Below, one piece after another: positions 11,163-43,198 of a DNA stretch of 64,000 nt. Position 1 is the stretch's first letter. Each line of letters opens with the position of its first letter. The notes below the pieces were generated by a model that did no database searches, had not been told where the DNA came from, and was given only the letters and a program-made list of their open reading frames with translations. Source of the DNA: Enteractinococcus coprophilus (GTDB taxonomy: Bacteria; Actinomycetota; Actinomycetes; Actinomycetales; Micrococcaceae); the NCBI RefSeq assembly GCF_006716305.1, contig NZ_VFOU01000001.1, positions 1-64,000 of the forward strand. The letters are read 5' to 3'. A program made the position numbers and the translations under genes.

Positions 11163-11222
11163 TTGACAGTAATGTGCATCACATTCTACTGTGGTGCAAC
11201 AGCGTTGCAAGAGTTGCAACTA
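11163..11222 (+). promoter_or_regulatory. Promoter and three-half-site operator of the MHS transporter gene
   Basis: TTGACA (11163-11168) and TCTACT (11185-11190) are spaced by 16 bases. The spacer region contains AGTAATGTGCATCACA (11168-11183), which also forms a 15-bp palindrome AATGTG-CAT-CACATT. Downstream lies TGCAAC-AGC-GTTGCA (11195-11209), then TGCAAC (11215-11220) as a direct repeat 20 bases from the first half-site. The whole element overlaps the predicted transcription start and recurs upstream of creatinase 2, creatininase and dimethylglycine oxidase. Confidence 0.7.
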
Positions 11223-11243
11223 TTGATGCTACGGCGGTGAAGA

Positions 11244-12599
11244 ATGTCTGAACCAAGCGCTCCGACCTTCAAAGAAGATTTAGGTCCAACGCTTTCGGGC
11301 CAAGAACGTCCACATCCTGGGGGGATCGGAACCAAAGCACGTCGCAAAGTTATTGTGGCGAGTTTCATTGGCAACTTTGTCGAATGGTTTGATTACGGCG
11401 CATACAGCTATCTGGCTGTTGTCATTGCTGCCGTATTCTTCCCGTCAGACAACCTTACCGAAGGATTAATCTGGACGTTTGCGTTGTTTGCGGTGTCTTT
11501 CCTTGTACGGCCGCTCGGTGGGTTCATCTGGGGCCACATCGGCGACCGGGTCGGCCGACGCAACGCACTAGCATGGTCCATTCTGATTATGAGTGCCTCC
11601 ACTGTCTGCATCGGATTGCTACCCGGTGCGGCCACACTCGGCTTATGGGCCCCGGCATTACTGTTACTTTTCCGCGTGCTGCAAGGATTCAGCGCATCGG
11701 GAGAATACGCCGGAGCATCGGCATACCTCGTCGAGTATGCGCCTAAAGGCAAACGCGGCATTTACGCAGCCGTCGTGCCAGGATCGACCGCAGCAGGTCT
11801 ACTATTCGGCTCGCTCATGGCAACCACGCTGACTGCGTCACTGACGACCGCAGAGATGGAATCATGGGGCTGGAGGCTTCCTTTCCTCCTGGCAGCTCCA
11901 CTTGGGCTCATCGGCGTATATATCCGTCGAAAACTAGAGGACTCCCCTGTCTTCCAGGAAATGGCACAAGAAGATGAAGCCGTCAAAGCACCTGTATGGG
12001 CCCTGTTCCGTGACCACTGGCGTGCACTAGTTCGTGCCACAGCAGCAGTGCTGCTCAATGCCGTAGGTTTCTATGTCATCTTGACCTACATGCCGACCTA
12101 CTTGTCCCAGACCATCGGGCTTGATCTCACTACAGCCAACGTCACTACCACCATATCGCTGATCACCTACATTGGATTCATCTTCCTCACAGGACATCTA
12201 TCTGACCGCTTTGGGCGCCGCAAAATTCTCATGAGTGCTTCTGTACTGTTCATCCTGCTCACCGTGCCCGCATTCTTACTGCTCGGCACAGGTAGTGTAG
12301 TGGTGATTCTGCTGGTCCAAGTCCTGCTAGGCGCCATGCTGACACTCAATGACGGCAGCCTGGCCAGTTTCCTCGCAGAGAGCTTCCCCACCCGAGTACG
12401 TTACTCCGGCTTCGCTGTGTCATTCAACGTGGGTAACGCGATCTTTGGCGGAACCGCCCCGGCTATTGCAACTTTGCTAATTGCTAGCACTGGCAGCGCC
12501 ATTGCTCCGGGCTGGTACCTGATGGGCGCAGCTGTTATCGCGCTGATAGCTGTCTGGCTCTCACCAGAAACAAGCCACAAAGAACTCGAAGACTGCTAA
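11244..12599 (+). CDS. MHS-family MFS transporter (ProP-like proton symporter)
   Basis: This is a 451-aa integral membrane protein with about 12 hydrophobic segments. The family signatures are visible: FIGNFVEWFDYGAYSYLA at the first helix, GHIGDRVGRRNALAWSI in the 2-3 loop, LQGFSASGEYAGASAYLVEYAPKGKRG in helices 4-5, and LSDRFGRRKIL in the 8-9 loop. Relatives carry proline/betaine, shikimate, citrate or alpha-ketoglutarate with protons. The operator shared with the creatinine and dimethylglycine genes suggests a methylated glycine compound (betaine, dimethylglycine, sarcosine or creatine) as substrate. That is inference. Confidence 0.85.
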   Translation: MSEPSAPTFKEDLGPTLSGQERPHPGGIGTKARRKVIVASFIGNFVEWFDYGAYSYLAVVIAAVFFPSDNLTEGLIWTFALFAVSFLVRPLGGFIWGHIGDRVGRRNALAWSILIMSASTVCIGLLPGAATLGLWAPALLLLFRVLQGFSASGEYAGASAYLVEYAPKGKRGIYAAVVPGSTAAGLLFGSLMATTLTASLTTAEMESWGWRLPFLLAAPLGLIGVYIRRKLEDSPVFQEMAQEDEAVKAPVWALFRDHWRALVRATAAVLLNAVGFYVILTYMPTYLSQTIGLDLTTANVTTTISLITYIGFIFLTGHLSDRFGRRKILMSASVLFILLTVPAFLLLGTGSVVVILLVQVLLGAMLTLNDGSLASFLAESFPTRVRYSGFAVSFNVGNAIFGGTAPAIATLLIASTGSAIAPGWYLMGAAVIALIAVWLSPETSHKELEDC

Positions 12600-12643
12600 G
12601 CATCTTGTAGTCCCCAACTCGGGCCGACTTTGTTCAGAGTGCA

Positions 12644-13333
12644 CTACACGGTGACTCGAGCGAATTCGGCCCGAAATATTATGTGGTGTAATTGTGGCAA
12701 GGTAAATTCTGGCATTCGACCAAAAGATCTCCGTTGGTGCTCGACGTCAAGCTTAGAGGTTACACCCAGCAAGAGGTCATCACGTTGTGTGCGGCTGAAC
12801 TGTCCAAAGCCGAGCGCACGAGCAACGAAAGCATCCAACCAGGCGTTTTGCACCTCCGATAAGTGCGGGGTGTAGTGGCCTAGCACGATCAAGAAATAGT
12901 CCCAAGCCGGGGTGGGTACCCCATCGGTGGTCAATAATGCATCGCGCTGTTGCTGCGACGCCGGATCAACATCCGCTGCACTGTTGATGCCTGCGTCCAG
13001 CAACGCACCAGCGGCGGTCATCAACCTGTCGATTTGGTATTGTTCGGCAACGAAATCTGCCAACCCAAAAGGACCTAGCGTGGCAAGGAGTCGCATCATA
13101 TTGGCCGGGCCCCGAAAAGCTTTATACGCTCTGAGCCGCGGCAGCACCCCGGCCCCATAGGCGCCGTCTGCTTCGGCCCCGATGCTCAAGATCGTGTCCA
13201 TAAGCGCGACTTCTACGGCGGTTGTCCAATTCCCGGTGGCACCGTTAAACGGACGTGCCCCGGTTCTAGTGGCTGCTTCGGCTAGTGCGGTGAGATCAGT
13301 CTCGGTGGGAGAAGCCATGAAATTCGCTTTCAT
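12644..13333 (-). CDS. Conserved hypothetical protein with HhH/endonuclease III-like helical pattern
   Basis: About 229 aa, with no firm family name. The middle (GPFGLADFVAEQY, then ALLDAGINSAADV) and the end (TPAWDYFLIVLGHYTPHLSEVQNAW, then VARAL) resemble helix-hairpin-helix proteins of the endonuclease III fold found as hypotheticals in actinobacteria. No iron-sulfur cysteine loop or catalytic lysine/aspartate pair was recognised, so enzymatic activity is doubtful. The start is uncertain: ATGs at 13333 and 13318 have weak ribosome sites, and upstream starts at 13360 and 13408 remain open. It converges on the MHS gene and diverges from the IclR gene. Confidence 0.6.
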   Translation of the reverse strand: MKANFMASPTETDLTALAEAATRTGARPFNGATGNWTTAVEVALMDTILSIGAEADGAYGAGVLPRLRAYKAFRGPANMMRLLATLGPFGLADFVAEQYQIDRLMTAAGALLDAGINSAADVDPASQQQRDALLTTDGVPTPAWDYFLIVLGHYTPHLSEVQNAWLDAFVARALGFGQFSRTQRDDLLLGVTSKLDVEHQRRSFGRMPEFTLPQLHHIIFRAEFARVTV

Positions 13334-13470
13334 TTCTGACAATACAGGGCACGGCTTCATCCTATACCTGCAGCACAACTTCACGAGCGCTATATAGTCG
13401 CTTCTCAACCATGACTCAGGTCAGGGCTGTGACGTAAGATTCTTAAGTGTTCCCACATCAAAGGAGATCC

Positions 13471-14232
13471 ATGAGTGCCCCTCGCAACTCGGTAGTTCAT
13501 AACGTTATCGACGTCTTGCGATGCTTTTCATCCGAGTATCCCCTGGTGGGCGTCACAGAGATAGCTGATCGAGTCGGGTTACATAAATCCTCGGTTTCTC
13601 GCCTATTAACCACTCTGGAAGCCGAGGGGTGGGTCGAGCAGGATTCCATCACTCGGCGATACCAGCTCGGGCTCGGACTGATTGCCATTGCCGGACCATT
13701 GCTGGCAAATCTCAACGTCCGGCAAGTGGCTTATCCATATCTGCAGGAATTGGCTGAAACAACGAAAGAAACCGCAGTTTTAGCGGTGTGGCAAGGGTCC
13801 GTGGCAGTCACGGTCGAACAAATCGCTTCCGATCGCACAGTCAAACATACTTCCCCACTAGGCGCGCGTTACGCATCAACGGGTTCAGCCTCGGTGCAGG
13901 TCTTCCTGGCCGAAATGTCCGATGAACAGGTCACCACATTGTTGGATGAAGGCACCATCGAGTTGCAGCATGGATGGACGCGAGCAAAATTGCGTAAACG
14001 GCTCGAGGCGGTCCGCAAGCAAGGGTATGCCACGAACTTGCAAGAAACCTTTGATGACGAAGTGGGGATTGCTGCACCGGTCTACGATCATCGGCGCGAA
14101 GTCGTCGCTGCGGTCTTGATCGCCGCGCCCTCCTATCGGAGTGATGAGCAGACCACCCAGGCGTTGATAGACCAGTGCGTGGCGACCGCAGCAAAGATTT
14201 CCACCCGGATGGGAAATCCAGACTCGCAATAA
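13471..14232 (+). CDS. IclR-family transcriptional regulator
   Basis: A 253-aa regulator with an N-terminal winged helix (residues about 8-70; VTEIADRVGLHKSSVSRLLTTLE is the recognition region) and a C-terminal effector-binding domain with the typical RYASTGSASVQVFLAE and DDEVGIAAPVYDHRREVVAA motifs. The ATG at 13471 is preceded by a strong AAAGGAG, so the upstream in-frame ATG at 13447 is rejected. Its target is unknown. Its own upstream region lacks the GTTGC element seen at other promoters here. A weak hairpin (14219-14240) follows the stop codon. Confidence 0.9.
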   Translation: MSAPRNSVVHNVIDVLRCFSSEYPLVGVTEIADRVGLHKSSVSRLLTTLEAEGWVEQDSITRRYQLGLGLIAIAGPLLANLNVRQVAYPYLQELAETTKETAVLAVWQGSVAVTVEQIASDRTVKHTSPLGARYASTGSASVQVFLAEMSDEQVTTLLDEGTIELQHGWTRAKLRKRLEAVRKQGYATNLQETFDDEVGIAAPVYDHRREVVAAVLIAAPSYRSDEQTTQALIDQCVATAAKISTRMGNPDSQ

Positions 14233-14262
14233 CCGCGAGACTGGATTGTCTTGTGTTGCACA

Positions 14263-15237
14263 TTAGTCGATTGCGGTTGGCACCACGAGCACGGGCGTGA
14301 CAGCACGGTTCAACACCGCCTGGCTCACGGACCCCAAGAGCAAACCGGCAAATCCACCACGACCGCGTGTACCCACGACTGCCATGTCGGCGGTGCGCGA
14401 CGCCTCTGCTAATGCATCTGCAGGTGAAGCATCAAAGAAACGCCAATGCACCTCAACGGAGCTTTGTTCGGCAACCTGTTCGGCAACCTTTGCCAGGCGC
14501 TTGGCGACATCTTTGCGCAGGTCTGGCACCTCTGCTTGATAAATTGGTGAGACAGGCATCCACATGCTGCCAGTGAAAGGTTGGGCCGTAACCAACGTCA
14601 GAGATTTGCCTAACACTTGGGCATGTTTTGCTGCATGCAATGACAATTCCACCGGGTAGGCATCCAGGTCGACGCCCACGACAACGGTTCCACTAAAGTT
14701 AGTAGGGTCACCATCATCCTGGGATGATAGGACTCCGAACTCCGACAATTCTGGACTGCCCGATAACCGTGCAAATTGCGTTTCCAAGTGCTCACCGGAG
14801 TGGCGTTTTTCTGGAATAACCAAGGTCGGGCATTTAGCATGCGAAGCAACCGAGGCCGAAACGCTCCCCAAAAAGCGACCAGCAAACCGGCTGCGTCCAC
14901 GCTTGCCCACCACCACGAGCACCGCGTCTTGGGAAGCCTTGATGAGTGCACCGGCTGCATCACTTTCGATCGTGGTGCCGCTGATGCCAAGCTCGGAATC
15001 ATCGACGGTAGCTACCAAGTCATTAATAACCGCCTGGGCATTTTCTTGAGCCAGGCCTTGGGTGTTCTCTGGAAGATACTCGTATCCTGGTTCGGTGTAA
15101 GCCGCAATGACTCGCAAGCCGTAACCAAATTTCTGGGCAATTTCAACGGCAACGTCGAATGCTCGTTCGCTGTTTTCTGATCCGTCCACACCAACGACGA
15201 CAGTACCTGTTGCTGGATGCTCTGCGATGTGTCTCAT
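14263..15237 (-). CDS. Tandem-domain universal stress protein
   Basis: A 324-aa cytoplasmic protein with two Usp domains (about 8-150 and 185-322). Both carry the ATP-binding glycine motif: GKRGRSRFAGRFLGSVS in the first and GTRGRGGFAGLLLGSVS in the second, after VVVGVDGSENS and VVVGVDLDAYP starts. Two-domain, ATP-binding Usps are common in actinobacteria and are linked to hypoxia, nutrient limitation and osmotic stress. The gene diverges from the YuiF-like carrier at 15318, so the two may be co-controlled. Confidence 0.93.
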   Translation of the reverse strand: MRHIAEHPATGTVVVGVDGSENSERAFDVAVEIAQKFGYGLRVIAAYTEPGYEYLPENTQGLAQENAQAVINDLVATVDDSELGISGTTIESDAAGALIKASQDAVLVVVGKRGRSRFAGRFLGSVSASVASHAKCPTLVIPEKRHSGEHLETQFARLSGSPELSEFGVLSSQDDGDPTNFSGTVVVGVDLDAYPVELSLHAAKHAQVLGKSLTLVTAQPFTGSMWMPVSPIYQAEVPDLRKDVAKRLAKVAEQVAEQSSVEVHWRFFDASPADALAEASRTADMAVVGTRGRGGFAGLLLGSVSQAVLNRAVTPVLVVPTAID

Positions 15238-15317
15238 ATCACCACTTTAGCAAGCTCCCCTGAAACATAATAGGCTGCTGAGTAGCAACGAGAGGCCAAC
15301 GAACGGTTCTTCCGGCG

Positions 15318-16727
15318 ATGAATGTCAAAGGTGGGCTCGGTGCGGAGGCACCCTATGGTCTATGCTTATCGTTCGTGAATGCTGTAGTTATTTCCGTGGC
15401 CGTCATGCTTCTACTAGCACTGTTGAGGGTTCACGTAGTTATCGCCCTCTTTATCGGTGCCCTTGCTGGCGGCCTCATGGCCGGCATGGGACTAGAAGGC
15501 ACGATGCTGGCCTTCGAATCAGGTCTTGGCGACGGGGCCAAAATCGCCCTATCCTATGCCCTCCTCGGGGCGTTCGCGATGGCAGTTGCTGCTTCCGGTT
15601 TGCCCAAAGCTTTAGCCGATGCGTTAATTCGCAAGTTAGATGCGAATGCCGACGGAGCCTCTGAAAAAGTTATCACGATAACCACCTACCTGGTCATCGG
15701 TGGGATCCTGGCGATGTCCATCATGTCGCAGAACCTCATACCCGTTCATATTGCGTTCATCCCATTGCTCATACCACCGCTGTTGACCGTATTCAATCGG
15801 TTGAACCTGGATCGTCGACTCGTCGCCTGCGTTCTGACCTTTGGTCTGGTGACCACTTACATGCTGTTACCGGTGGGCTTCGGTAAAATCTTTTTGGAAG
15901 ATATTCTGCTGAGCAACATCGAACGTGCGGGCTTGGACACCTCGGGGATCAACATTGTGCAAGTCATGGCCATCCCCGCTCTGGGCATGGTCGCCGGGTT
16001 ACTCATCGCCGTATTTATTAGCTACCGCAAACCACGCCAATACGAAGAACGCCCGCTGGCAGGCGGCACAATTGTTCAACCAACGCCGACCCGCTATAAC
16101 CTCATCATGTCGATCGTAGCTATCGTGGTTACCTTTGCCATCCAGCTCATTGTGCAGTTCAGCGGTTCTGAAGCCGATGGCCTGCTTTTGGGGTCACTGG
16201 TCGGTCTCGGCATCTTCCTGCTGTCCGGTGTTGTCGAATGGAATAAGGCCGACGACGTCTTCACCTCAGGTATGCGCATGATGGCGCTGATCGGATTTGT
16301 CATGATCTCGGCGCAAGGCTTTGCCGCAGTGATCAACGAATCGAATCAGATCGAACCACTGGTCGCCGTCGTCCAAGAATTCTTCGGTGGAAACAAGGCC
16401 ATGGCAGCACTGGCCATGCTCGTGGTTGGGCTGATTGTGACCATGGGCATCGGCTCATCATTTTCGACCCTGCCAATTATCGCCGCGATTTACGTCCCAT
16501 TGTGTATCTCACTCGATTTCTCGATGGCAGCTACCGTGGCACTCGTTGGTGCGGCTGGCGCCCTGGGCGATGCTGGCTCCCCCGCTTCCGACTCCACACT
16601 GGGCTCCACCGCAGGATTAGCAGCCGATGGCCAACACGACCACATGCGAGATACTGTCATTCCGACCTTCATTCACTACAACATCCCGCTGACCGCTTCT
16701 GGTTGGGTTGCTGCGATGGTCCTCTAA
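15318..16727 (+). CDS. Na+/H+ antiporter-family (YuiF-like) membrane transporter
   Basis: A membrane protein of about 450-469 aa with 11-12 hydrophobic segments. It resembles the YuiF/NhaC-type Na_H_antiporter family: MSIMSQNLIPVHIAFIPLLIPPLL, the central GAGGALGDAGSPASDSTLGSTAGL re-entrant motif (near residues 415-440) and a C-terminal HYNIPL. Members exchange protons or sodium, and some import amino acids such as histidine, so the substrate is open. The start is uncertain: no good ribosome site precedes the ATG at 15318, and the GTG at 15375 starts directly at the first helix. Confidence 0.75.
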   Translation: MNVKGGLGAEAPYGLCLSFVNAVVISVAVMLLLALLRVHVVIALFIGALAGGLMAGMGLEGTMLAFESGLGDGAKIALSYALLGAFAMAVAASGLPKALADALIRKLDANADGASEKVITITTYLVIGGILAMSIMSQNLIPVHIAFIPLLIPPLLTVFNRLNLDRRLVACVLTFGLVTTYMLLPVGFGKIFLEDILLSNIERAGLDTSGINIVQVMAIPALGMVAGLLIAVFISYRKPRQYEERPLAGGTIVQPTPTRYNLIMSIVAIVVTFAIQLIVQFSGSEADGLLLGSLVGLGIFLLSGVVEWNKADDVFTSGMRMMALIGFVMISAQGFAAVINESNQIEPLVAVVQEFFGGNKAMAALAMLVVGLIVTMGIGSSFSTLPIIAAIYVPLCISLDFSMAATVALVGAAGALGDAGSPASDSTLGSTAGLAADGQHDHMRDTVIPTFIHYNIPLTASGWVAAMVL

Positions 16728-16740
16728 GCATCGACCAGTC

Positions 16741-17714: not shown

Positions 17715-17744
17715 TTGAAGTCGCTTTTAACCGGTGCATAGGAT
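17715..17744 (+). promoter_or_regulatory. Candidate promoter of creatinase 1
   Basis: TTGAAG (17715-17720) and TAGGAT (17739-17744) are 18 bases apart, about 58 bases before the creatinase start. The rest of the 419-base gap (17383-17801) holds no convincing gene or RNA. It lacks the GTTGC element found at the other creatine-pathway promoters. Confidence 0.4.
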
Positions 17745-17801
17745 GGGGTCGAACGATAAGGCACAGAATATGACCCCAGAGTTGAAGTGGAGCATCGCTT
17801 A

Positions 17802-19058
17802 ATGACTAGCCCGATCAAACCTCACAAAACCGACCACAGTACGGTCCCGCATGTTTTTACGCAGCACAACGGTGATCAGCAGGAGCTGACGTTCTCACCA
17901 GCGGAATTCGATCGCCGGCTGGCTAACGCTCGAAAAGTGATGGCGGCTGATGATGTGGAGGCGCTGGTACTCACCAGCATGCACAATATCAAGTACTTCT
18001 CTGATTTCGTTCCTTCCCCCTTCGGTCGGCTTTTCGGCATCATCATCACCCCTGAAGATTCCATTACCATCACCCCCTGGGTTGATGGCGGCATGCCTTG
18101 GCGCACTACGTACGGTGACAATATCGTCTACTCGGATTGGGATGCACAAAACTTTTTCCGCGCCATCCAGCACACGCTGGATGAACGCAACATCAAACCG
18201 CGCCGGTTGGGGATCGAACACGATGGCCTCACCGTTGAGGAATACCACCGCCTCCACGATTGGTTCGACGGCGTTGAGCTTGTCAACGTAGCTACGGATC
18301 TGATGAATCAGCGCGTGGTCAAATCAGAGGAAGAGATTCACCTGATCAGCGAGGGTGCACGAATCGCTGATATTGGCGGTCGGGCGATTAAAAATGCAAT
18401 TACGGAAGGCATCACCGAATACGAATTGGCCTTGATTGGTACCGAAGCGATGGTGCCCGAGATCGCCAAGTCCTATCCCTCACGAGAACTCCGCGAAACC
18501 TGGTGCCTCGTGCAGGCCGGTATCAACACTGATGGTGCACACAACTGGCCGACTACCCGCAAACTGCAAAAAGGTGACATCTTATCGATCAACTGCTTCC
18601 CGATGATGTCAGGCCACTACACCGCTATGGAACGCACCATGTTCTTAGGTCAGCCAGACAAACGCAGCCTGGAATTATGGAAGATTAACGTTGAGGCCTT
18701 TGAACTCGGAAAAGAACTTATCAAGCCTGGCGCCGTTGCCCAGGATATTGCAGCTGAACTCAACCGGTTCTTCGAAAAACATGACCTGCTGAAATACGCC
18801 CCGATCGGTTATGGTCACTCGTTTGGTGTCATGAGCCCCTATTACGGTCGCGAAGCCGCGATGGAGTTCCGTGAAGACATCGAAACAGAACTGAAACCAA
18901 ACATGGTGGTTTCGATGGAACCGATGTTGACCATTCCAAATAATTTGCCGGGCGCTGGCGCGTACCGTGAACACGATATCCTCGTGCTCACGGAAGATGG
19001 GCACAAAAACCTGACCGATTTTGAAGTCGGCCCGGAACATAACATCATCGACTCATAG
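17802..19058 (+). CDS. Creatinase (creatine amidinohydrolase), paralogue 1
   Basis: It hydrolyses creatine to sarcosine and urea. The 418-aa protein has the two-domain pita-bread (M24) fold, but with the creatinase motif GINTDGAHN near residue 240, whose histidine matches the catalytic His of Pseudomonas creatinase. The aspartate metal ligands of true M24 aminopeptidases are replaced (DILSINCFP), while YGHSFGV, the glutamate in VSMEPML and YREHDILV are kept. The ATG at 17802 has GGAG nine bases upstream. The gene stands alone, away from sox and creatininase, and is probably regulated separately from paralogue 2. Confidence 0.88.
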   Translation: MTSPIKPHKTDHSTVPHVFTQHNGDQQELTFSPAEFDRRLANARKVMAADDVEALVLTSMHNIKYFSDFVPSPFGRLFGIIITPEDSITITPWVDGGMPWRTTYGDNIVYSDWDAQNFFRAIQHTLDERNIKPRRLGIEHDGLTVEEYHRLHDWFDGVELVNVATDLMNQRVVKSEEEIHLISEGARIADIGGRAIKNAITEGITEYELALIGTEAMVPEIAKSYPSRELRETWCLVQAGINTDGAHNWPTTRKLQKGDILSINCFPMMSGHYTAMERTMFLGQPDKRSLELWKINVEAFELGKELIKPGAVAQDIAAELNRFFEKHDLLKYAPIGYGHSFGVMSPYYGREAAMEFREDIETELKPNMVVSMEPMLTIPNNLPGAGAYREHDILVLTEDGHKNLTDFEVGPEHNIIDS

Positions 19059-19077
19059 TCATACCGAGATGCTATGC

Positions 19078-19243: not shown

Positions 19244-19247
19244 ACTG

Positions 19248-33856: not shown

Positions 33857-35098
33857 CTACGCGTCGATAATGTTATGTTCTGGGCCGTATGGGAACTTAG
33901 TGATGTTTTCTGCACCATCTTCTCCGACCACGAGGATGTCGTGTTCGCGGTAGCCACCGGCGCCCGGCTCGCCTTCCATGACCGTGATCATCGGTTCTAT
34001 CGACACGACCATGCCAGGTTCTAGCACTGTATCGATGTCTTCGCGCAGTTCTAGGCCTGCTTCGCGTCCGTAGTAGTGCGACAGCACCCCGAAGGAGTGG
34101 CCGTATCCGAAGGTGCGGTTCGACAACAGACCGTGTCCGATGAAGATTTCATTCAGTTCATGTGCGATGTCTTTACAGACTGCACCGGGCTTGATGAGTT
34201 CGAGACCGGCTTCGTGAACTTCCACATTTGCTTTCCACAGCTCTAACGTACGAGCGTCCGGTTGTCCCAGGGTCAATGTCCGTTCGAGAGCGGTGTAATA
34301 GCCCGATGTCATTGGGAAGCAGTTCAGGGACAGCAGATCGCCGCGCTGCAGTTTGCGAGTGGTTGCCCAGTTATGTGCACCGTCGGTGTTGATACCCGAC
34401 TGGAACCATACCCAGGTGTCACGTACCTCTTGGTCTGGGAAGGTCTTGGCAATTTCGTGGGTCATTGCTTCGACACCGATCAGTGCGACTTCGTATTCGG
34501 TAATACCTTCGCGGATCGCGGCCTTGATTGCCTCACCGCCGATGTCACCGATGCGGGCACCGTGCTTGATGACCTCAATTTCTTCGGCGGATTTGATCAT
34601 GCGCTGACGCATCGCTGCCTGGGAAATATCCAACAGCTGGGCGGATGGGAAGGTGTCCTGGAGTGCCCTGCGCTGCATCGTGGTCACAGTGTCGTCTTCG
34701 ACGCCGATGCGCTTAGCGCTGATGCCCTGGCGGGCAAGGGCTTCCTGTAGGCCGTAGTAGAAGTTGTCGCGGCGCCAGTCGGTGTAGACGATGTTGTCAC
34801 CGTAGCTGGTTCGCCATGGCATGCCGGCATCAATGTTGGCAGTCACCGAAATGGATTCCTGTGCTGTCACAACCAACGCGTAGGAGCGACCGAAGTATGT
34901 GAAGAGGAAGTCCGAGTAGTACTTGATGCTCTGATAGCTCGTCAAGATCACTGCGTCGAGTTCTTTTTCGGCCATGATTGAGCGCAGACCAGTCAAACGA
35001 CGCTCAAATTCGGCGTCCGAGAAAGTCAGCGGCTGCTTTTCTCCATTATGGAGGGTCTTCAGACGCTCTAGTTCGCTGACATTCGTGACATTAGCCAT
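33857..35098 (-). CDS. Creatinase (creatine amidinohydrolase), paralogue 2
   Basis: It hydrolyses creatine to sarcosine and urea. The 413-aa protein is clearly homologous to paralogue 1 at 17.8 kb, with GINTDGAHNWATTRK (catalytic His), DLLSLNCFP replacing the M24 metal-ligand aspartate, YGHSFGVLSHYYGR and GGYREHDILVV. The ATG at 35098 has a strong AAGGAG; longer upstream starts are rejected. Unlike paralogue 1, its promoter carries the three-half-site element and a CRP-like box shared with creatininase, so this copy is probably the inducible one. Confidence 0.9.
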   Translation of the reverse strand: MANVTNVSELERLKTLHNGEKQPLTFSDAEFERRLTGLRSIMAEKELDAVILTSYQSIKYYSDFLFTYFGRSYALVVTAQESISVTANIDAGMPWRTSYGDNIVYTDWRRDNFYYGLQEALARQGISAKRIGVEDDTVTTMQRRALQDTFPSAQLLDISQAAMRQRMIKSAEEIEVIKHGARIGDIGGEAIKAAIREGITEYEVALIGVEAMTHEIAKTFPDQEVRDTWVWFQSGINTDGAHNWATTRKLQRGDLLSLNCFPMTSGYYTALERTLTLGQPDARTLELWKANVEVHEAGLELIKPGAVCKDIAHELNEIFIGHGLLSNRTFGYGHSFGVLSHYYGREAGLELREDIDTVLEPGMVVSIEPMITVMEGEPGAGGYREHDILVVGEDGAENITKFPYGPEHNIIDA

Positions 35099-35215
35099 GT
35101 GGTTCTCCTTGAAAATCCTCAGCCCGTGTGCTTGGTGCTGAACCATAGTGGTGAATAGGTTTTGAGCCTCGCGGGCTGAATCCCGCCGCTCTGATATGGA
35201 AACCGGCAACCGATC

Positions 35216-35275
35216 AAGTTGCGATCAGTGCAACGCCGTTGCATCCAGGATATGTGTGAGTATCCTCACTGTCAA
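35216..35275 (-). promoter_or_regulatory. Promoter and three-half-site operator of creatinase 2
   Basis: On the minus strand, -35 TTGACA (35275-35270) and -10 TATCCT (35252-35247) have 17-base spacing. The spacer is AGTGAGGATACTCACA (complement of 35255-35270), one mismatch from TGTGA-N6-TCACA. The element TGCAAC-GGC-GTTGCA followed after six bases by GCAACTT (complement of 35216-35243) overlaps the predicted start. The same layout recurs at three other promoters. Confidence 0.72.
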
Positions 35276-35375: not shown

Positions 35376-35389
35376 CCTGCCCCCAAAGG

Positions 35390-37174
35390 TTAGGACAAGT
35401 TATCACCGGATCCTGGCGGACGTGAGGAGACAGTAGTGGCGTCATCAGGTGACTCCACGAAACCCTCACCGTCGGGGTCAGGAATTAGCACCAGGTTTGG
35501 ATCCGGGTCATTGATGGCCCGCTCCATACGACGAATCTGCTTATTGCGCTTATGTAGTCGTCTAATCAGGTTGGCGATCATGAGCAGGATGACAAACGAG
35601 AACGGGAAGGCGCCGATGATGGTTCCGGTTTGGACGGTGTCTACGACTGCCTCACCACCGATCGACAATAAGACAGTTGCCACGGTGCCAATACTCACGA
35701 CCAGCACGACACGGAAGACCGGACTGGATTTGCGCGGTGCCGTCACGAACTCACCTAACGCATACGTACCAGCGTCCAGCGAGGTGATGTAGTAGGTAGC
35801 CACCAGCACTGTCGCAACGACAAGCAAGATGGTTCCAATCACCGGGATCTGATCGAGCATCGCGAATAGCCCGCTTGAGGTGTCAGCTGCGACCTGTTCA
35901 CTAATAGAGCGGCCCAACTGGTCGTCATAGTAGATCGATGCAACGCCGATGACGCCGACCCAGACCATCACAATAAGCGACGGCACAACGGTCACACCGA
36001 GGACGAATTCGCGAATCGTCCGCCCACGGGAAATGCGTGCCACGAAACCCGCTACGAACGGCGAGAAAGCAATAACCCAGCACCAGATAAAGACCGTCCA
36101 CCAGCCGTTCCAGCTATCCTGCCACGTATCGAGCGACCCTGCGGCAAGCTGGAAGTCGGTGAAGAAGCTCATCGACAAGAAATGCTGACCGAATGTACCA
36201 AAAGTTTGGGTCATGGTTGAGAGCATGTAAATCGTCGGGCCGAAGATGAACACCGCTACAACAAGTATGATACTCAGAATCGAGTTCAGTCCAGATAATC
36301 GGGCCATACCTTTGTTAATGCCAACAAAGGCTGAGATGCCCGTCACGGCAGCGAAAGCACCGATGACGATCATCCACATGACCGGTCCTGACTCGAGTCC
36401 GGTAAACGACGTAATACCTGAGCCGAACTGCATCGCCGCAAAACCGAATGATGTTGCCAAACCGAGCACTGTGGCGATGATTGCCAAGAGTTCGATTACC
36501 ACACCAGCCGGGCGCTGTACTTTCTTGGGCAGGATATCAACGGTCGCTTCGCGGAAGGTTAGCGTCTTACCCAGGTTGTGATGCGAGTATGCCAAGCAGA
36601 GCGCCACGACGCAGTACATCGCCCAGGCTGTCAGTCCCCAGTGGAAGTACGTCCAGACGATCGCGCCTTCTTCTGCTCCACCTGTTCCCACAACAGGGAT
36701 GACAGGGTTGTCATCCCGCAGCATGATGGGTTCAGCTACCGACCAGAAGATCAGCCCGATGCCCTGCCCGCACGCAAAGAGCATAGAGTACCACGCGAAG
36801 CGCCCGTGCAAAGGTTTTGCCTTCGGACCACCAAGACGAACTTTGCCGAATTTACTAAAGGCCGCCCAAATACATACGATCAGTGCAACCAGCGAGTACA
36901 CGATGAATAGCCATGTGAATTCACCGGTAACAAATGTCCGCAGCATCGAAATAGCTGCGGCTGCACCATTTGGGTTGACGATGACCCAGATAACCGCGGC
37001 AACTATGAGTACCGGCGGAATAATCATGATGAGCAGTCGGTCTAGGGGTGGGATTTGTCGGCCCATGAACCGGGGCACTTCAACCGGGGGCTGTTCATCG
37101 GACTCCACGGGCTGCTCTCCTGCATATTCAACCGACACTTCGGAAGATTTTGTCGTAGTTTTGGCACTGGTCAT
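35390..37174 (-). CDS. BCCT-family betaine/carnitine/choline-type transporter
   Basis: A 594-aa integral membrane carrier with 12 predicted helices. Family signatures are GQGIGLIFWSVAEP, WTYFHWGLTAWAMYC (substrate-box tryptophans) and the long BCCT signature beginning WNGWWTVFIWCWVIAFSPFVAGF, followed by RISRGRTIREFVLG. Both termini are charged, as in osmoregulated members. The ATG at 37174 is one base after the creatininase stop, so the two are translationally coupled. BCCT carriers move quaternary ammonium compounds and carnitine; here creatine, creatinine or betaine is the inferred substrate. The terminator follows at 35337. Confidence 0.9.
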   Translation of the reverse strand: MTSAKTTTKSSEVSVEYAGEQPVESDEQPPVEVPRFMGRQIPPLDRLLIMIIPPVLIVAAVIWVIVNPNGAAAAISMLRTFVTGEFTWLFIVYSLVALIVCIWAAFSKFGKVRLGGPKAKPLHGRFAWYSMLFACGQGIGLIFWSVAEPIMLRDDNPVIPVVGTGGAEEGAIVWTYFHWGLTAWAMYCVVALCLAYSHHNLGKTLTFREATVDILPKKVQRPAGVVIELLAIIATVLGLATSFGFAAMQFGSGITSFTGLESGPVMWMIVIGAFAAVTGISAFVGINKGMARLSGLNSILSIILVVAVFIFGPTIYMLSTMTQTFGTFGQHFLSMSFFTDFQLAAGSLDTWQDSWNGWWTVFIWCWVIAFSPFVAGFVARISRGRTIREFVLGVTVVPSLIVMVWVGVIGVASIYYDDQLGRSISEQVAADTSSGLFAMLDQIPVIGTILLVVATVLVATYYITSLDAGTYALGEFVTAPRKSSPVFRVVLVVSIGTVATVLLSIGGEAVVDTVQTGTIIGAFPFSFVILLMIANLIRRLHKRNKQIRRMERAINDPDPNLVLIPDPDGEGFVESPDDATTVSSRPPGSGDNLS

Positions 37175-37175
37175 G

Positions 37176-37970
37176 TCAATTTGCCTTTCGTGGGGCAGCC
37201 ATGAGTTGAAGTTCGGAAACGAGAGCCGAAGAAACCGCTCCGCGGACAGCTTCAAATAATTGCTGACCCTTTTCAGCGGTAGCAGCTTTTGCCGACGATA
37301 GGCACCCACTTGATGGCGTGCGTCCCGGATCTTCTGGGAAAATATCGTAATTCGTTAGCTGCGCTGGCGGATGATCCATGACTCGGGACATGTCGACTTT
37401 GTCGGGGTATAACAACAGCATCAGCGAGGTCTCGAGTACTCCACCGTGCTCGATGTCCCAACCGAGGAAACCATCGGGAAAGACACTTTGGAGTGTCGTC
37501 TCATCAACGAAATCCCAGTAGGACAGCAGCATGCCCCGTCCTGCATTTCCATCCTTGCGGGCTTGTGCCACTGCGCAGTCGAGACCTTCATAGACGAACT
37601 GGTAATTCTCAAAGTGGCCATTGAGCACGACGACATTCTGGAAACCTTGTGCAAGAAAAGACGAGACCACATCCTCGATCAGATTGATCATAGTGACGCC
37701 CCTCAGGCTCGTAGTTCCCAAGCGGTGGTTGCCTCCACCTGAACGGGGCTGGGATTTATATCCGTATGCGAAGACTGGTGCGACGAGAGCTCCAATGTTC
37801 TCTGCGACTGATGCAGCGATCGCCGCTGACAGCATGGCATCGACACCAAGTGGCATGTGGGGACCGTGTTGTTCGGTTGCTCCGGTGGGAATAATAACCG
37901 TTGATCCTTCTCGACTGAGATACTCGGCAAATGTATCCGCATCGAGGTCTTCCAGAAAGACTGAAGACAT
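37176..37970 (-). CDS. Creatininase (creatinine amidohydrolase)
   Basis: It reversibly opens creatinine to creatine, with two metal ions. The 264-aa product matches the Pseudomonas enzyme closely, as I recall it: GATEQHGPHMPLGVDAML (metal-binding Glu, His, Asp), YGYKSQPRSGGGNHRLGTTSL, LNGHFEN (metal His and Glu), SYWDFV and GFLGWDIEHGGVLETSLML. The ATG at 37970 (MSSVFLED) has AAGGAG seven bases upstream and is preferred to 37991. It is followed by the BCCT carrier. With the creatinases it makes the entry to the sarcosine pathway. Confidence 0.95.
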   Translation of the reverse strand: MSSVFLEDLDADTFAEYLSREGSTVIIPTGATEQHGPHMPLGVDAMLSAAIAASVAENIGALVAPVFAYGYKSQPRSGGGNHRLGTTSLRGVTMINLIEDVVSSFLAQGFQNVVVLNGHFENYQFVYEGLDCAVAQARKDGNAGRGMLLSYWDFVDETTLQSVFPDGFLGWDIEHGGVLETSLMLLLYPDKVDMSRVMDHPPAQLTNYDIFPEDPGRTPSSGCLSSAKAATAEKGQQLFEAVRGAVSSALVSELQLMAAPRKAN

Positions 37971-38044
37971 ATGTACTCCTTGACTCCCCAACAGTCGGGG
38001 TCATAATTCCGGCAACGTGCCGATCAGAGAATGTGCAATTCATA

Positions 38045-38105
38045 AAGTTGCCTCGAACGCAACAGTGTTGCAGCAAATATATACAGTGGTGCTCATCACA
38101 GTCAA
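38045..38105 (-). promoter_or_regulatory. Promoter and three-half-site operator of creatininase-BCCT
   Basis: On the minus strand, -35 TTGACT (38105-38100) and -10 TATATA (38083-38078) are 16 bases apart. TGTGATGAGCACCACT (complement of 38085-38100) resembles a CRP box. TGCAAC-ACT-GTTGCG, six bases, GCAACTT (complement of 38045-38072) overlaps the predicted start near 38071. The rest of the gap to 38304 shows no gene. Confidence 0.72.
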
Positions 38106-38304
38106 GAAGATTGGGGGAAACGAAAATAGGCATCGCAGAATACTGCACGGTCATAGTTGCCTCAGACGCTGGTCGGGCCGTCATCGTCGAAGCGTATTTG
38201 AGCACCACAGCGCCAACATATAACAGTGCTCTGTGATGTGACGTCATCAAGCATGGCCGAGCAATCAGGACACAGCCGGTCGAGCCAGCACGCTGGGTCT
38301 CCCA

Positions 38305-38673: not shown

Positions 38674-38857
38674 ATTCTCACCCTATGACCGACCGACTGA
38701 CGCCTGTCAACCGCATAGCTGCGGTTTGGGACACTTTGTTCAATGAAATGCGGCTGAGGAGCTTCTGGTCAGGCCGGGGGATATTTCGTCGAACCGGCAT
38801 GAGACCGCTCTTGAGAGCACCGTAGCCGACTGCACTCCAAGTCAGACCCATTGTGCT

Positions 38858-38881
38858 CGAGCCAACTATATGTTTGGCTCG
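38858..38881. promoter_or_regulatory. Inverted repeat in the fmdB leader
   Basis: CGAGCCAA (38858-38865) and TTGGCTCG (38874-38881) flank CTATATGT, 36 bases before the fmdB ATG. The TATAT in the loop could be a -10 box, which would make this an operator covering the fmdBA promoter. It could instead be an RNA hairpin. Only the repeat itself is seen. Confidence 0.4.
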
Positions 38882-38917
38882 GCACTACCGACCTGCACTC
38901 TGAGAGGATCACACTAT

Positions 38918-39211
38918 ATGCCACTCTATGATTACCGGTGCCCCGAGGGGGATATTTTCGAAGCCTTCTTTTCCATGCATGACAAACCCGATACTGCCAC
39001 CTGCCCGAGCTGTGGGCAAAGCGCCAGCAGTCTCATGCCGGCTATCGGCCCCTCGAAGCTCAACTCGGCACAAATGCGCCTCCTAGATGCAACCCGAGCC
39101 ACCGCCGAAACTCCCGAGGTGGTGCATTCCATCTCAGGTGCTCGCTCCAAGAAACGCCCCTCGACTCCTGTCACCCGAAATCCACTGCATCAAAAATTGC
39201 CCCGCCCTTAG
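38918..39211 (+). CDS. fmdB: FmdB-type zinc ribbon protein
   Basis: A 97-aa protein beginning MPLYDYRCPEGD, with the paired cysteine CPSCG zinc ribbon near residue 32. FmdB was first described as a regulator of amide-inducible porin and formamidase genes in Methylophilus, and it is often next to fmdA. The usual first CxxC is reduced here to a single Cys in YRCPEGD. An AGAGGATC site precedes the ATG at 38918. It is 28 bases upstream of fmdA and surely in its operon. Confidence 0.85.
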   Translation: MPLYDYRCPEGDIFEAFFSMHDKPDTATCPSCGQSASSLMPAIGPSKLNSAQMRLLDATRATAETPEVVHSISGARSKKRPSTPVTRNPLHQKLPRP

Positions 39212-39239
39212 GGGCTCGCATACGAACGAAGGAGCATCA

Positions 39240-40502
39240 ATGCTTGGCAATCTTTTCCCCCTCGATTCATCCAAACCATTTACCGAACAAGAAAAGATCG
39301 GGCACAACCGTTACCACCCCGAAATCCCACCTGTAGCCACTGTAAAACCCGGAGACAGCTTCCGAGTGGATTCTCGAGAATGGTTTGACGGCGCCATCAA
39401 AAATGATGACTCCGCTGAGGACATTCTCAATGCGCCCATGAAGAAAGTCCATGGCCTATCCGGACCTTTCCGGATCGAAGGTGCCCAACCCGGCGACTTA
39501 CTCATCGTCGATATTTTGGATGTCGGACCAATCCCCCAGGAACAAGGTCCACTAGCTGGACAGGGGTGGGGCTATACGGGCATCTTTGCTAAATCCAACG
39601 GCGGCAGTTTCTTAGTCGAACAATTCCCGGACGCGTACAAAGCGGTTTGGGACTTCCACGGCCCCTGGGCGACGTCGCGCCACATTCCGGGGGTGAAATT
39701 CGAAGGCCTTACCCACCCCGGGATCATGGCTACTGCACCCAGTGCCGAACTGTTGGCGAAATGGAATACTCGGGAAGCGGCCCTAATCGCTACCGACCCG
39801 GAGCGTGTCCCGCCACTGGCGCTACCACCGGAGCCCGAAGAGTCCGTCTTGGGCAGCGTCCCGCAAGCTGATCGGGCACGCATCGCAGCTGAAGCCGCCC
39901 GTACCGCTCCTCCGCGAGAAAACGGTGGAAATCAGGACATCAAGAACCTGACTAAAGGTACCCGGGCGTTCTACCCGGTCTTTGTTGACGGTGCGAACTT
40001 CTCGGTTGGTGACCTGCACTTCTCACAGGGTGACGGGGAAATCACGTTCTGTGGCGGCATCGAGATGGGGGGTTATCTGGAACTGCACGTTGACCTGATA
40101 AAAAACGGCATGGAGCTCTATGGAGTGTCCGAAAACGCGATCTTTATGCCGGGTCGCCAGGATCCACAGTTCAGTGAATGGATCGCATTCTCCGGTACTT
40201 CGGTAACTTTGGACGGCGAGCAGCGCTATCTTGACTCCCACCTGTCGTACCAGCGAGCGATCTTGCACGCGATCGATTACCTCGCGACTTTTGGTTACTC
40301 ACCCGAACAGGCGTACCTGCTGCTGGGTGCAGCCCCGGTCGAAGGACGTCTGTCGTCCGTCGTCGATATTCCGAACTCGTGTTCAACGGTCTACATTCCA
40401 ACCGCGATTTTCGATTTTGACGTGCGACCATCAGCCAACGGTCCCCACCAAATCGACCCAGGAATCGGCGCTCCCAAAGCAGCTGATCCTGTCTTCGGGT
40501 GA
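39240..40502 (+). CDS. fmdA: Formamidase (acetamidase/formamidase family)
   Basis: It hydrolyses formamide (or a short amide) to formate and ammonia. The 420-aa cytoplasmic enzyme has the FmdA_AmdA features: GPFRIEGAQPGDLLIVDILDVG, GGSFLVEQFPDA, HPGIMATAPS, the acidic FCGGIEMGGYLELHVDL, and the DIPNSCSTVYIPTAIFDF end. AAGGAG precedes the ATG. The neighbour fmdB supports formamidase rather than acetamidase. In this nitrogen-rich catabolic cluster it could release ammonia from amides; no link to creatinine breakdown can be shown. Confidence 0.9.
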   Translation: MLGNLFPLDSSKPFTEQEKIGHNRYHPEIPPVATVKPGDSFRVDSREWFDGAIKNDDSAEDILNAPMKKVHGLSGPFRIEGAQPGDLLIVDILDVGPIPQEQGPLAGQGWGYTGIFAKSNGGSFLVEQFPDAYKAVWDFHGPWATSRHIPGVKFEGLTHPGIMATAPSAELLAKWNTREAALIATDPERVPPLALPPEPEESVLGSVPQADRARIAAEAARTAPPRENGGNQDIKNLTKGTRAFYPVFVDGANFSVGDLHFSQGDGEITFCGGIEMGGYLELHVDLIKNGMELYGVSENAIFMPGRQDPQFSEWIAFSGTSVTLDGEQRYLDSHLSYQRAILHAIDYLATFGYSPEQAYLLLGAAPVEGRLSSVVDIPNSCSTVYIPTAIFDFDVRPSANGPHQIDPGIGAPKAADPVFG

Positions 40503-40530
40503 TTGCTTCGGTAGTTGGCTCCATACATAC

Positions 40531-40570
40531 CACCGGTGGCGGGCGTTGCTCGAGGCGCCCACCACCGGTG
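40531..40570. terminator. Bidirectional terminator between fmdA and dimethylglycine oxidase
   Basis: CACCGGTGG (40531-40539) pairs with CCACCGGTG (40562-40570), with an inner GGGCG/CGCCC-type stem. It sits between two converging stop codons. Confidence 0.82.
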
Positions 40571-40594
40571 CATTGCGTATGAGGTCAGGGATAT

Positions 40595-43102
40595 TTAACG
40601 ACGAATCTTGGCTCCTTCAGGATCGTAGATGGGATCCATGGCAACTTCTGCCGGGACGGACCGGTCAAAGTGCTGGATCACGACGTCGTTGCCGGGCTCG
40701 GTGTATTCGGGATCTAACCAGGCATACGTGATGGTTTTGCCCACGGTGTATCCGAAGTCCGATGAGGCGGTGTACCCGATCGTTTCGCCGGCCTGATTGC
40801 GTACCGGGGAACCAGGGTTCGGCGATCCGAAAGGGAAGGCAGACGTCAACGACACCATCCTGCGGTAAGTCCGAGGCGGCGTCGCTAGCGCATCATAGCC
40901 AAGGTAATCAGTTTTGACCTTAGAGACCGCGAATCCGAGACCGGCCTGGTCTGGCCGATGCTCACGAGTAATATCTGCCCCGTAAGAGCGGTAGCCTTTT
41001 TCCAAACGGAGCGCGTTGAAGGCTAACCGTCCGCCGATGATCAGTCCATATGCTCTGCCTGCGGCTTCGATTTCCTCCCACAGACGGGCACCATGATCTG
41101 CGGTCGTGTAGAGCTCCCAACCCAGTTCGCCAACGTACGACACCCGCAGTGCCAAGACCGGCACGGCCGCCACGTAGATCTGCCGGGCTTTGAAGTAACC
41201 GAAACCCTCATGGCTGATGTCGTCGTCGGTGAGTTTACCTAGGACATCGCGGGCATGCGGTCCCCACAGACCAATGCAGCAGGTTCCCGGGGAGATATCT
41301 GTGATCGTGACGTGTTCACCGTCTATGACATTGTTCTTCAAGTGCATCAGGTCACGGTGATTATTCGCCCCGATCATATATTCGTCTTCGCTCACCCGGG
41401 CTACGGTGATATCCGAGAGAATACCGCCCGTTGCATCCAGCATCAGCGAGTAGGTCACCGAGCCGGGGGCCTTCGAAACTTTATTCGTAGTGAGCCGTTC
41501 GAGCAGTGCGGTGGCATCCGGACCTTCAACGCGGTAGCGAGTGAGTGAGGTCATATCGTACATCGCTACGCGGTTCCGGGTGGCCCAGGCTTCTGCAACA
41601 GCAATCGGTGAGAATTCGGAGGTATCCCATGCCGGAATTTTCGGGAAGGTCAGATCAGCTTCTTCAAGGATCCTGCGGTTTTCTTCCAGCCATAGCGGGC
41701 GTTCCCACCCATTGGCTTCGACAAAATGCGCGCCGGCGAGCTTCTGGTGGAAGTAGAACGGCGAGGTCCGCAAGCGCCGCAATTTAGCCGACGCAGCACG
41801 CGGATGACGGATGTCGTAGACTTCGTCATAGGCTTCTAGACCCTTTTGCCGCGCGAACTCGGGTGACAGTAATTGGGTGTCGAAGCGGGCCACATCCAGG
41901 TCTGCTGTGTCGATGCCTGGGTCACCCGTCGTCATCCAGTCGGCTACTACTTGCGCCACGCCGGCCGAGGCGGTGACCCACACGGCCTGCGCCAACCACA
42001 CACCACGCACGGTATTTGATGGACCCAGCAGTGGCCCGCCGTCGGGAGTGAAGGAGAACAGGCCGTTGAAGGAGCGCTCCTCATCAAGTCCACCGTCACG
42101 AACCGAAGGATAAACCCGCTGAATCTCTTCCCAGGTTGGCGCGTAGTCCTTATAGGTAAACTCATGGATGGCGGGTTGGCGTCCAGAAATATGCGCTGCT
42201 TGCGGAGTCGCGATTTCGTCTTGGCGCACTTCTAGTGGGCGGTGCTCATAGGCGCCCACCGCAAGCGTCTTGCCTTGCTGACGGAAATACAGCCCAGCAC
42301 TCTGGTGGCGGATAATCGGGTGGTTGCAGGCCTCATCATTGACGGCGTCTTGGAACTCGTCCAACTCGTGGCTATAACCCATCCCGTGTTCAATCGGCTG
42401 CATCGGGAGGTTGCGGCCCAACCATTTGCCAATCGTGGGCCCCCAAATGCCGCCAGCAGCTACCACGTAATCAGCTTCAATGATGCGTTCATTGTCTCCG
42501 CTGAGAGCATCAACGACCTTGACCCCGACGACAATGTCGTCTTCGACCACCAGATCAACAGCTTGTGTGTGGCCGTGAAAGGTTGCGCCGTGTTCAATCG
42601 CCCGAGTCGCTTGAGCTTCGACTGCCCTCACCGAATGCACCACCGCATCCGTCGGAGTGTGCAGCGCACCGACCAGCCCTTCGGTGTTGATGCCCGACCA
42701 GAGTTCGCATACCCCCTGGGCGTCGATCAATCGGGAGTCCACACCCCAAGCTTGAGCAAAACCGTGGCGACGCTTCAGCTCGCGGAATTGTTCATCCGTG
42801 TATGCCAGCTCGATACCACCAACCCGCTTCAGTACCCAATTGTCGTCCCCACCGGGATTCAACTCGTCCAGTTTATTCAGCGTGCGCTGAGCTAGCTCCG
42901 ACATGGCTTTCGACGGATTGATCTGAAAGACAAAACCGGGCGCGTGCGAGGAGGAGCCACCTGTTCGATACAGCGGTCCTTGGTCTATTACCGTGACATT
43001 GCGTGCACCACGTTGCGTCAATTCATCCGCCACTGCGGCGCCGACGACGCCGGCACCAATAACAACGATTTTCGCATCAGGTGAGTAAGTCTGTTGTTCC
43101 AT
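40595..43102 (-). CDS. Dimethylglycine oxidase (FAD- and folate-dependent)
   Basis: It oxidises N,N-dimethylglycine to sarcosine and passes the methylene group to tetrahydrofolate. The 835-aa length matches Arthrobacter globiformis DMGO (about 830). The N-terminal DAO domain has the FAD motif VVIGAGVVGAAVADEL and GGSSSHAPG, whose histidine (residue 53) corresponds to the covalent FAD site. FSFTPDGGPLLG and AVWVTASAGVAQ follow. The C-terminal GcvT domain (about 430-835) keeps the aspartate in LDATGGILSDITVAR used in folate chemistry and GTCCIGLWGP. An AAGGGG precedes the ATG. It is divergent from an IclR regulator, with one operator copy between. Confidence 0.94.
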   Translation of the reverse strand: MEQQTYSPDAKIVVIGAGVVGAAVADELTQRGARNVTVIDQGPLYRTGGSSSHAPGFVFQINPSKAMSELAQRTLNKLDELNPGGDDNWVLKRVGGIELAYTDEQFRELKRRHGFAQAWGVDSRLIDAQGVCELWSGINTEGLVGALHTPTDAVVHSVRAVEAQATRAIEHGATFHGHTQAVDLVVEDDIVVGVKVVDALSGDNERIIEADYVVAAGGIWGPTIGKWLGRNLPMQPIEHGMGYSHELDEFQDAVNDEACNHPIIRHQSAGLYFRQQGKTLAVGAYEHRPLEVRQDEIATPQAAHISGRQPAIHEFTYKDYAPTWEEIQRVYPSVRDGGLDEERSFNGLFSFTPDGGPLLGPSNTVRGVWLAQAVWVTASAGVAQVVADWMTTGDPGIDTADLDVARFDTQLLSPEFARQKGLEAYDEVYDIRHPRAASAKLRRLRTSPFYFHQKLAGAHFVEANGWERPLWLEENRRILEEADLTFPKIPAWDTSEFSPIAVAEAWATRNRVAMYDMTSLTRYRVEGPDATALLERLTTNKVSKAPGSVTYSLMLDATGGILSDITVARVSEDEYMIGANNHRDLMHLKNNVIDGEHVTITDISPGTCCIGLWGPHARDVLGKLTDDDISHEGFGYFKARQIYVAAVPVLALRVSYVGELGWELYTTADHGARLWEEIEAAGRAYGLIIGGRLAFNALRLEKGYRSYGADITREHRPDQAGLGFAVSKVKTDYLGYDALATPPRTYRRMVSLTSAFPFGSPNPGSPVRNQAGETIGYTASSDFGYTVGKTITYAWLDPEYTEPGNDVVIQHFDRSVPAEVAMDPIYDPEGAKIRR

Positions 43103-43113
43103 GGTCTATCCCC

Positions 43114-43198
43114 TTGAGTTGCATATGTTGCAACTTATGCGTAAGATGCAACTGTGACTTGTCGCACACATCATAGTGCGATTGGAGTCAGGACACAA
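43114..43198 (-). promoter_or_regulatory. Promoter, CRP-like box and operator between dimethylglycine oxidase and IclR
   Basis: For the oxidase, -35 TTGTGT (43198-43193) and -10 TATGAT (43175-43170) are 17 bases apart. A CRP/GlxR-like TGTG-N8-CACA box (43153-43168) follows the -10. Farther down are TACGCA-TAA-GTTGCA, six bases, then GCAACTC (complement of about 43116-43143), a weaker copy of the three-half-site element with a degenerate first half, plus another TGCAAC at 43147-43152. The site lies in the oxidase leader and upstream of the IclR gene, so it could serve both. Confidence 0.62.

Follow-up and report, generated by a model that had tools for sequence, protein, structure and literature searches.

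A predicted three-box IclR-family operator at the creatine and creatinine genes of Enteractinococcus coprophilus and its relatives

Three promoters of a creatine and creatinine gene cluster of Enteractinococcus coprophilus, located in the 64,000-nucleotide stretch of DNA analysed here (the window), carry the same box, TGCAAC-N3-GTTGCR-N6-GCAACTW. Judged from sequence comparison, it is quite probable (roughly 0.83) that this box is a three-half-site operator of the IclR family placed over the transcription start, and that the IclR-family protein encoded at 13471 (IclR 13471) is its inducible repressor. The original prediction for this stretch identified the element and the kind of element correctly, but was probably mistaken about the binder and about a fourth member, the dimethylglycine oxidase (DMGO) promoter. 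Other genomes and loci are referred to below by handles in G and L.

Results

The box had been predicted upstream of the MHS carrier, creatinase 2 and the creatininase-BCCT pair, and the pattern scan of the window returned three exact matches at these promoters (Table 1) and no others at up to 3 mismatches, against a mean expectation of 0.04 matches for the full pattern in 100 dinucleotide shuffles. The whole genome (2.88 Mb, 6 contigs) holds 3 matches at 0 mismatches, 0 at 1-2 and 8 at 3, so that the box is not equally common elsewhere. On a matrix built from 111 boxes of other genomes, the scores are 31.3-37.2 bits for the three window boxes and 2.7 bits for the DMGO site, and the best score in the shuffled window averaged 3.3 with a maximum of 11.1 (20 mononucleotide shuffles). 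In all three boxes the third half-site repeats the first in the same direction at a distance of 20 bases, as proposed. The middle half-site forms a pair with each of its neighbours, TGCAAC-N3-GTTGC with the first and GTTGC-N7-GCAAC with the third, and the three half-sites alternate in direction; the suggested IclR-type operator form, a palindrome plus a third repeat, is supported. The palindrome GTTGC-N7-GCAAC occurs 9 times in the genome, including once at each of the four promoters of the original prediction, and 17 times in the reversed control, and is therefore not over-represented as such; three of the other five copies overlap a frame of at least 150 aa and two do not.

Table 1. Features of the window, with the sister operators found in other loci (last row)
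Feature	Position	Strand	Evidence and remarks
GntR/FCD regulator	10411..11070	+	PF07729/PF00392; cluster-linked, judged not the binder
MHS core promoter	11163..11192	+	TTGACA 11163-11168; imperfect CRP-like dyad GTA-N8-CAC 11169-11182; TACTGT 11187-11192
Three-box operator, MHS carrier (TGCAAC-N3-GTTGCA-N6-GCAACTA)	11195..11222	+	exact match; conserved before MHS orthologues; 32.4 bits
MHS-family metabolite:H+ symporter	11244..12599	+	TIGR00883 398.1 bits, under curated cut-off 443.45
IclR-family regulator 13471	13471..14232 (open frame from 13447)	+	PF01614/PF09339; proposed binder of the three boxes
Creatinase 2	33857..35209	-	1chm/7yto/1kp0 creatine amidinohydrolase, best E 1.4e-165 (1chm)
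Three-box operator, creatinase 2	35216..35243	-	exact match; 37.2 bits
Creatinase 2 core promoter	35247..35275	-	TTGACA 35270-35275; GTGA-N6-TCAC dyad 35256-35269; TATCCT 35247-35252
BCCT-family transporter	35390..37309	-	PF02028 463.8 bits; overlaps creatininase frame, same strand
Creatininase	37176..37991	-	TIGR04448 334.7 bits, cut-off 235; 1j2t 7.8e-79
Three-box operator, creatininase-BCCT	38045..38072	-	exact match; 31.3 bits
Creatininase core promoter	38076..38105	-	TTGACT 38100-38105; GTGA-N6-CCAC dyad 38086-38099; TATATT 38076-38081
Dimethylglycine oxidase (DMGO)	40595..43102	-	1pj5 2.3e-215
DMGO operator	43117..43153	-	tandem AGTTGCA-type palindromes, 18-bp period; 9/9 aligned promoters, three genera
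TGTG-N8-CACA-like dyad abutting DMGO element	43153..43170	-	sequence
Second IclR regulator 43234	43234..43980	+	divergent from DMGO; proposed binder of DMGO element only
Sister operators at N-carbamoylsarcosine amidase	L093:9033-9058, L141:1817-1842, L221-L226		

The MHS symporter is a candidate importer of creatine or creatinine, and its gene adjoins creatinase 2, downstream of a box, in several genera. The longest frame of creatinase 2 opens at a TTG directly after the box (the part from 35098 to 35209); as the genus-mate L014 shifts frame near residue 33, the ATG at about 35098 is a more probable start than the listed TTG at 35209. A second creatinase-like gene (17787-19058), 58% identical to creatinase 2, has no box. 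In Glutamicibacter creatinolyticus, a gene with PucR and PucR-type HTH domains (L139:751-2451, Pfam) stands divergent from creatininase and is a possible further regulator.

The box had also been predicted to overlap the transcription start, and each of the three boxes is preceded by a TAnnnT hexamer, ending 2-3 bases away, that would serve as -10 element. As the box starts just past this hexamer, it should span about -4 to +22 and cover the transcription start. The same layout is seen in the loci collected by the IclR 13471 profile (best 80 of 296; boxes too close to a locus end left out), where TTGAC lies 28-36 nt upstream of 77 of the 94 distinct boxes; among these 77 promoters TAnnnT precedes the box by 1-5 nt in 62, and GTG-N8-CAC stands exactly at one fixed place of the -35/-10 spacer in 63.

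Sites of the CRP/GlxR type have the consensus TGTGA-N6-TCACA, which the spacer dyad resembles, imperfectly in the copies of the window. The GntR protein was considered as binder of the dyad and made unlikely by the GntR-less genomes (no match at E<=1e-45), as 6 of their 8 promoters keep GTG-N8-CAC exactly (G104, G116, G197, G207, G230 and G254), with one letter changed in G193 and no dyad in G088. For this reason we tentatively assign the dyad to a CRP-type protein. The perfect TGTGA-N6-TCACA occurs 4 times in the own genome (reversed control 2) and TTGACNGTGN8CAC, at <=1 mismatch, 83 times (control 72), 7 of them exact; neither count speaks for or against a global regulator as binder of the spacer dyad.

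Within the genus, 8 of 9 genomes match the box at <=2 mismatches, the miss being a genome 71% complete, and 19 of the 23 loci outside the own genome precede MHS, creatinase 2 or creatininase; the remaining four are L025, L029 and L030 (2 mismatches, no known target) and L031, which is of the sister type described below. Across the family, 172 of 395 genomes from 23 of 32 genera match at <=1 mismatch, against 27 genomes for the reversed control. Every box in the 30 family loci listed, all of genus g10, is upstream of an MHS relative, and 18 of 20 further loci from ten genera have the box before MHS, creatinase, creatininase or BCCT. An IclR 13471 orthologue is present in 16 of these 20; of the four pieces lacking it, L083 and L095 are second boxes before MHS in IclR-bearing genomes and L090 and L099 are 1-mismatch matches with no recognised target. 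Boxes also occur before creatinase 2 and two MHS genes in Glutamicibacter creatinolyticus, in two Georgenia loci and in one Nocardiopsis locus. The box is therefore kept before orthologous creatine and creatinine genes, as the original prediction required.

The best 80 of 296 loci were gathered by the IclR 13471 profile and not by the box, and 14 chosen loci among them were inspected. On an 8 x 9 grid of spacings, N3/N7 was found in 68 of the 80 loci at <=1 mismatch (73 at <=2), N6/N7 in 9 and each of three further spacings in a single locus; the N6/N7 peak was rejected as a separate arrangement, being the N3/N7 site with an altered first half. All 67 loci of this set with at least 5 kb upstream of the IclR gene have the box at <=2 mismatches, and the 13 with a shorter upstream part are divided into 6 with and 7 without it. 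Upstream regions of MHS genes in the set carry it at <=2 mismatches in 62 of 68 cases, and their reversed sequences in 0 of 68. An own box within 330 bp, at the same threshold, was found for 11 of 70 creatinase, 5 of 27 creatininase and 3 of 15 BCCT genes of the set, and such low numbers would fit genes transcribed in operons that a boxed gene leads.

In the g10 loci, as in some others, the first box is accompanied by another, often weaker one about 120-185 bp further upstream. In L207-L211 it is 141-155 bp from the MHS box (the L210 copy at L210:6058-6083), and in L209-L211 the box matches on both strands overlap, giving four half-sites. On the far side of the second box of L210 are the genes for serine hydroxymethyltransferase (glyA) and sarcosine oxidase subunits beta and alpha (NCBIfam), and, judged by eye in L210 only, a -10-like hexamer of glyA precedes this box when it is read in the other orientation. 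In L096, glyA and a boxed BCCT gene are transcribed divergently. The second box may serve glyA in loci beyond L210 as well. Creatine supports growth of Arthrobacter Rue61a, and no operator is mentioned for its glyA-soxBDAG-sdaA-purU cluster in the part of PMC3534580 consulted.

As the cluster contains several candidate regulators, their occurrence was compared with that of the box. Pfam domains and locus context link an IclR-family gene to the boxes. Calls were made per genome in the 395 family genomes and gave IclR 13471 in 178 (E<=1e-60), GntR in 215 (1e-45) and IclR 43234 in 45 (1e-40). In raw genome counts, uncorrected for kinship and with target genes that travel with the regulator, box and IclR 13471 are both present in 162 genomes, the box only in 10, the IclR only in 16 and neither in 207 (phi 0.87). 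The original prediction had favoured IclR 43234 as the binder, for which the corresponding counts are 21, 151, 24 and 199 (phi 0.02); the box thus tracks 13471 and not 43234.

The exceptions were followed up in 9 of the 16 IclR-only genomes (G052, G061, G195, G214, G228, G301 and G389 were left out). Seven of the nine have 2-mismatch boxes, and each of these seven has at least one box with both changes in the first half and GTTGC-N7-GCAAC intact. Of the other two, G378 offers no upstream sequence, and the piece of G273, where the contig stops about 220 bp ahead of creatininase, contains no box. Among the 10 of 172 box genomes without an IclR 13471 call, G083 and G353 carry the IclR at a contig end.

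The DMGO promoter had been taken as the fourth matching element. Its site at 43118-43134 shares only GTTGC-N7-GCAAC with the box, there being no TGCAAC-N3 first half in place, and a second palindrome stands 18 bp upstream. All nine aligned DMGO promoters (seven from this genus and a single one from each of two other genera) have two AGTTGCA-led half-sites 18 bp apart that end in GCAAC, and each adjoins a divergent relative of IclR 43234. Among four such relatives examined outside the genus, L123 and L124 have both DMGO and the palindrome, and L121 and L122 have neither within 12 kb. The DMGO element is best given to IclR 43234 as its putative binder, and the single regulon of four promoters that had been proposed is not supported.

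The similarity of these two IclR systems raises the alternative that both proteins read all four promoters through the GTTGC core as one loosely coupled network. We regard this as unlikely: the half-site core is common and the helices are similar, but the box is kept in genomes with no 43234 relative and the two arrangements differ consistently. That IclR 43234 by itself binds all four sites in one methylated-glycine regulon, as originally predicted, is very unlikely. Its recognition helix is close to that of IclR 13471 (LHKSSVSRLL vs VHKSTASRLL), GTTGC-N7-GCAAC is common to all four promoters and its gene is nearer to two of the three boxes, from which IclR 13471 is 21-24 kb distant. Against this stand the 151 of 172 box genomes that lack a 43234 relative at E<=1e-40, and a DMGO element that is arranged otherwise, conserved with 43234 relatives and poorly scored by the box matrix.

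The linked GntR/FCD protein (10411) is a highly improbable binder of the box and was rejected. In six genomes of the genus (own, G001, G002, G003, G005, G006) its gene immediately precedes MHS, and in other genera it is often near boxes, with an overall phi of 0.63 in the 395 family genomes, but it adds nothing once IclR 13471 is given, the box being present in 152 of 166 genomes with both regulators, 10 of 12 with the IclR only and 3 of 49 with GntR only (7 of 168 with neither). Besides, motifs of the FCD type differ in shape from the box. G004 has no MHS gene between GntR and IclR and keeps both distant boxes. The idea of a 5' RNA hairpin (TGCAAC-N3-GTTGCA) in place of a protein site has a negligible probability and was likewise rejected, for although a hairpin of the first palindrome near the mRNA 5' end is conceivable, it is disrupted in clades with AACAAC, which retain GTTGC-N7-GCAAC, the third repeat is as conserved as the other half-sites (73 promoter-bearing boxes, a set selected with the three-part pattern), the box at L210 glyA has the opposite orientation and the transcription start would lie inside the first arm.

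A sister operator with the sequence AGCAAC-N3-GTTGCT-N5-AGCAAC is present in nine loci picked for having it or a close box. In 8 of the 9 it is directly upstream of an N-carbamoylsarcosine amidase-like gene, with a sister IclR in the same piece. The L093 amidase matches 1nba at 4e-161 and the other copies were recognised by BLAST to the L093 copy; in L093 and L141 the sister IclR shares 46% identity with IclR 13471. The ninth operator, in the genus-mate G008 (L227:6004-6029), has no amidase, sister IclR or recognised target within 12 kb. Two creatinine-breakdown routes thus appear to be served by paralogous IclR proteins and by operators differing in their flanking bases. A clean split of the operators is opposed by some MHS promoters that use an AGCAAC outer half (L139:8429, L189:6890, L196:7160). 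The sister-type box of L227:6004-6029 is abutted by a TGTGA-N6-TCACA dyad, which was seen in L031, a locus covering the same place.

Discussion

The sites, their conservation and spacing, their position in the promoter and their linkage to an IclR gene are observed, and from them we infer binding, repression, an inducer and a transcription start. A dimer or tetramer of IclR 13471-14232 would grip about 26 bp and, sitting at about -4 to +22, would stand in the way of RNA polymerase. Creatine, creatinine and sarcosine are candidates for the inducer, which would then release the protein and switch on the transporters, creatininase and creatinase.

A wider and more tentative reading, which we hold to be possible though doubtful, is that the three routes feeding into sarcosine are each guarded by an IclR paralogue, and that these paralogues, with near-identical recognition helices, read one GTTGC core and are separated by flanks and arrangement. 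The AGCAAC outer halves at the MHS promoters of L139, L189 and L196 make it somewhat less probable. The arrangements would be TGCAAC-N3-GTTGCR-N6-GCAAC for creatine and creatinine, AGCAAC-N3-GTTGCT-N5-AGCAAC for N-carbamoylsarcosine amidase and tandem AGTTGCA palindromes 18 bp apart for DMGO. A CRP-type protein stacked upstream in the -35/-10 spacer would place two repressors in series at the creatine and creatinine promoters. Comparing the three operators would be a natural way to test how IclR paralogues that share a core half-site escape cross-talk.

These results name a candidate regulator and operator for bacterial creatine and creatinine catabolism, the enzymes of which are clinical reagents. 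A regulator sensing creatine or creatinine would, if true, be a ready biosensor part. It would also give a function to an IclR clade with a solved C-terminal domain: residues 80-249 of IclR 13471 match PDB 3obf at 4.1e-41 and the orthologue profile does so at 9.8e-84. This entry ('Putative transcriptional regulator, IclR family') is limited to the C-terminal domain, and its name gives no function, ligand or operator.

Control of creatine genes has been described for Corynebacterium glutamicum ATCC 14067, where it is exerted by AmtR (PMC8864220). The two systems are alike in the transcriptional control of creatine and creatinine genes in an actinobacterium, but AmtR is a nitrogen regulator of the TetR family with the site CTAT-N6-ATAG, unlike the IclR box, and the main text of that paper has no word beginning with iclr. 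Outside Corynebacterium, the literature searched yielded no description of the control of creatine or creatinine catabolism, and among the top results of longer listings, supplementary files excepted, there was no IclR operator for creatine or creatinine genes.

Using comparative genomics, Suvorova and Gelfand (2021, PMC8222616) predicted three-box operators of the IclR family, and the present box has the alternating half-sites of these operators. One of its pairs corresponds to their group 1, GTT-11-AAC, and the other to the layout of their group 2, TGRAACA-N1-2-TGTTYCA, here with N3 between the AAC and GTT halves; both pair spacings are found together in the N3/N7 loci (68 of the best 80 of 296). 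The half-site is GTTGCR/TGCAAC here and GTTYCR/TGRAAC in PMC8222616 (tested as GKTYCR/TGRAAC), and as one letter differs per half, the box is filed as a variant of the three-box IclR-family operator. The DMGO layout fits the tandem sites of the same study, the centres of which are 18-22 nt apart. Its main text has no word beginning with arthrobacter, micrococc or creatin, and its supplementary tables may list the regulon. The experimental three-box example cited there is PcaU, which requires the external third half-site for binding (PMC8222616). The palindrome with an external third half-site is common to the PcaU, PobR and HmgR operators and the present box, whereas the PcaU half-site is of the GTTCG type and belongs to an aromatic pathway (PMC8222616), and the box stands at creatine and creatinine genes over the likely transcription start. 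Set beside the consulted part of that study, the architecture is already known, and the half-site, the regulon and the assignment of the regulator appear to be new.
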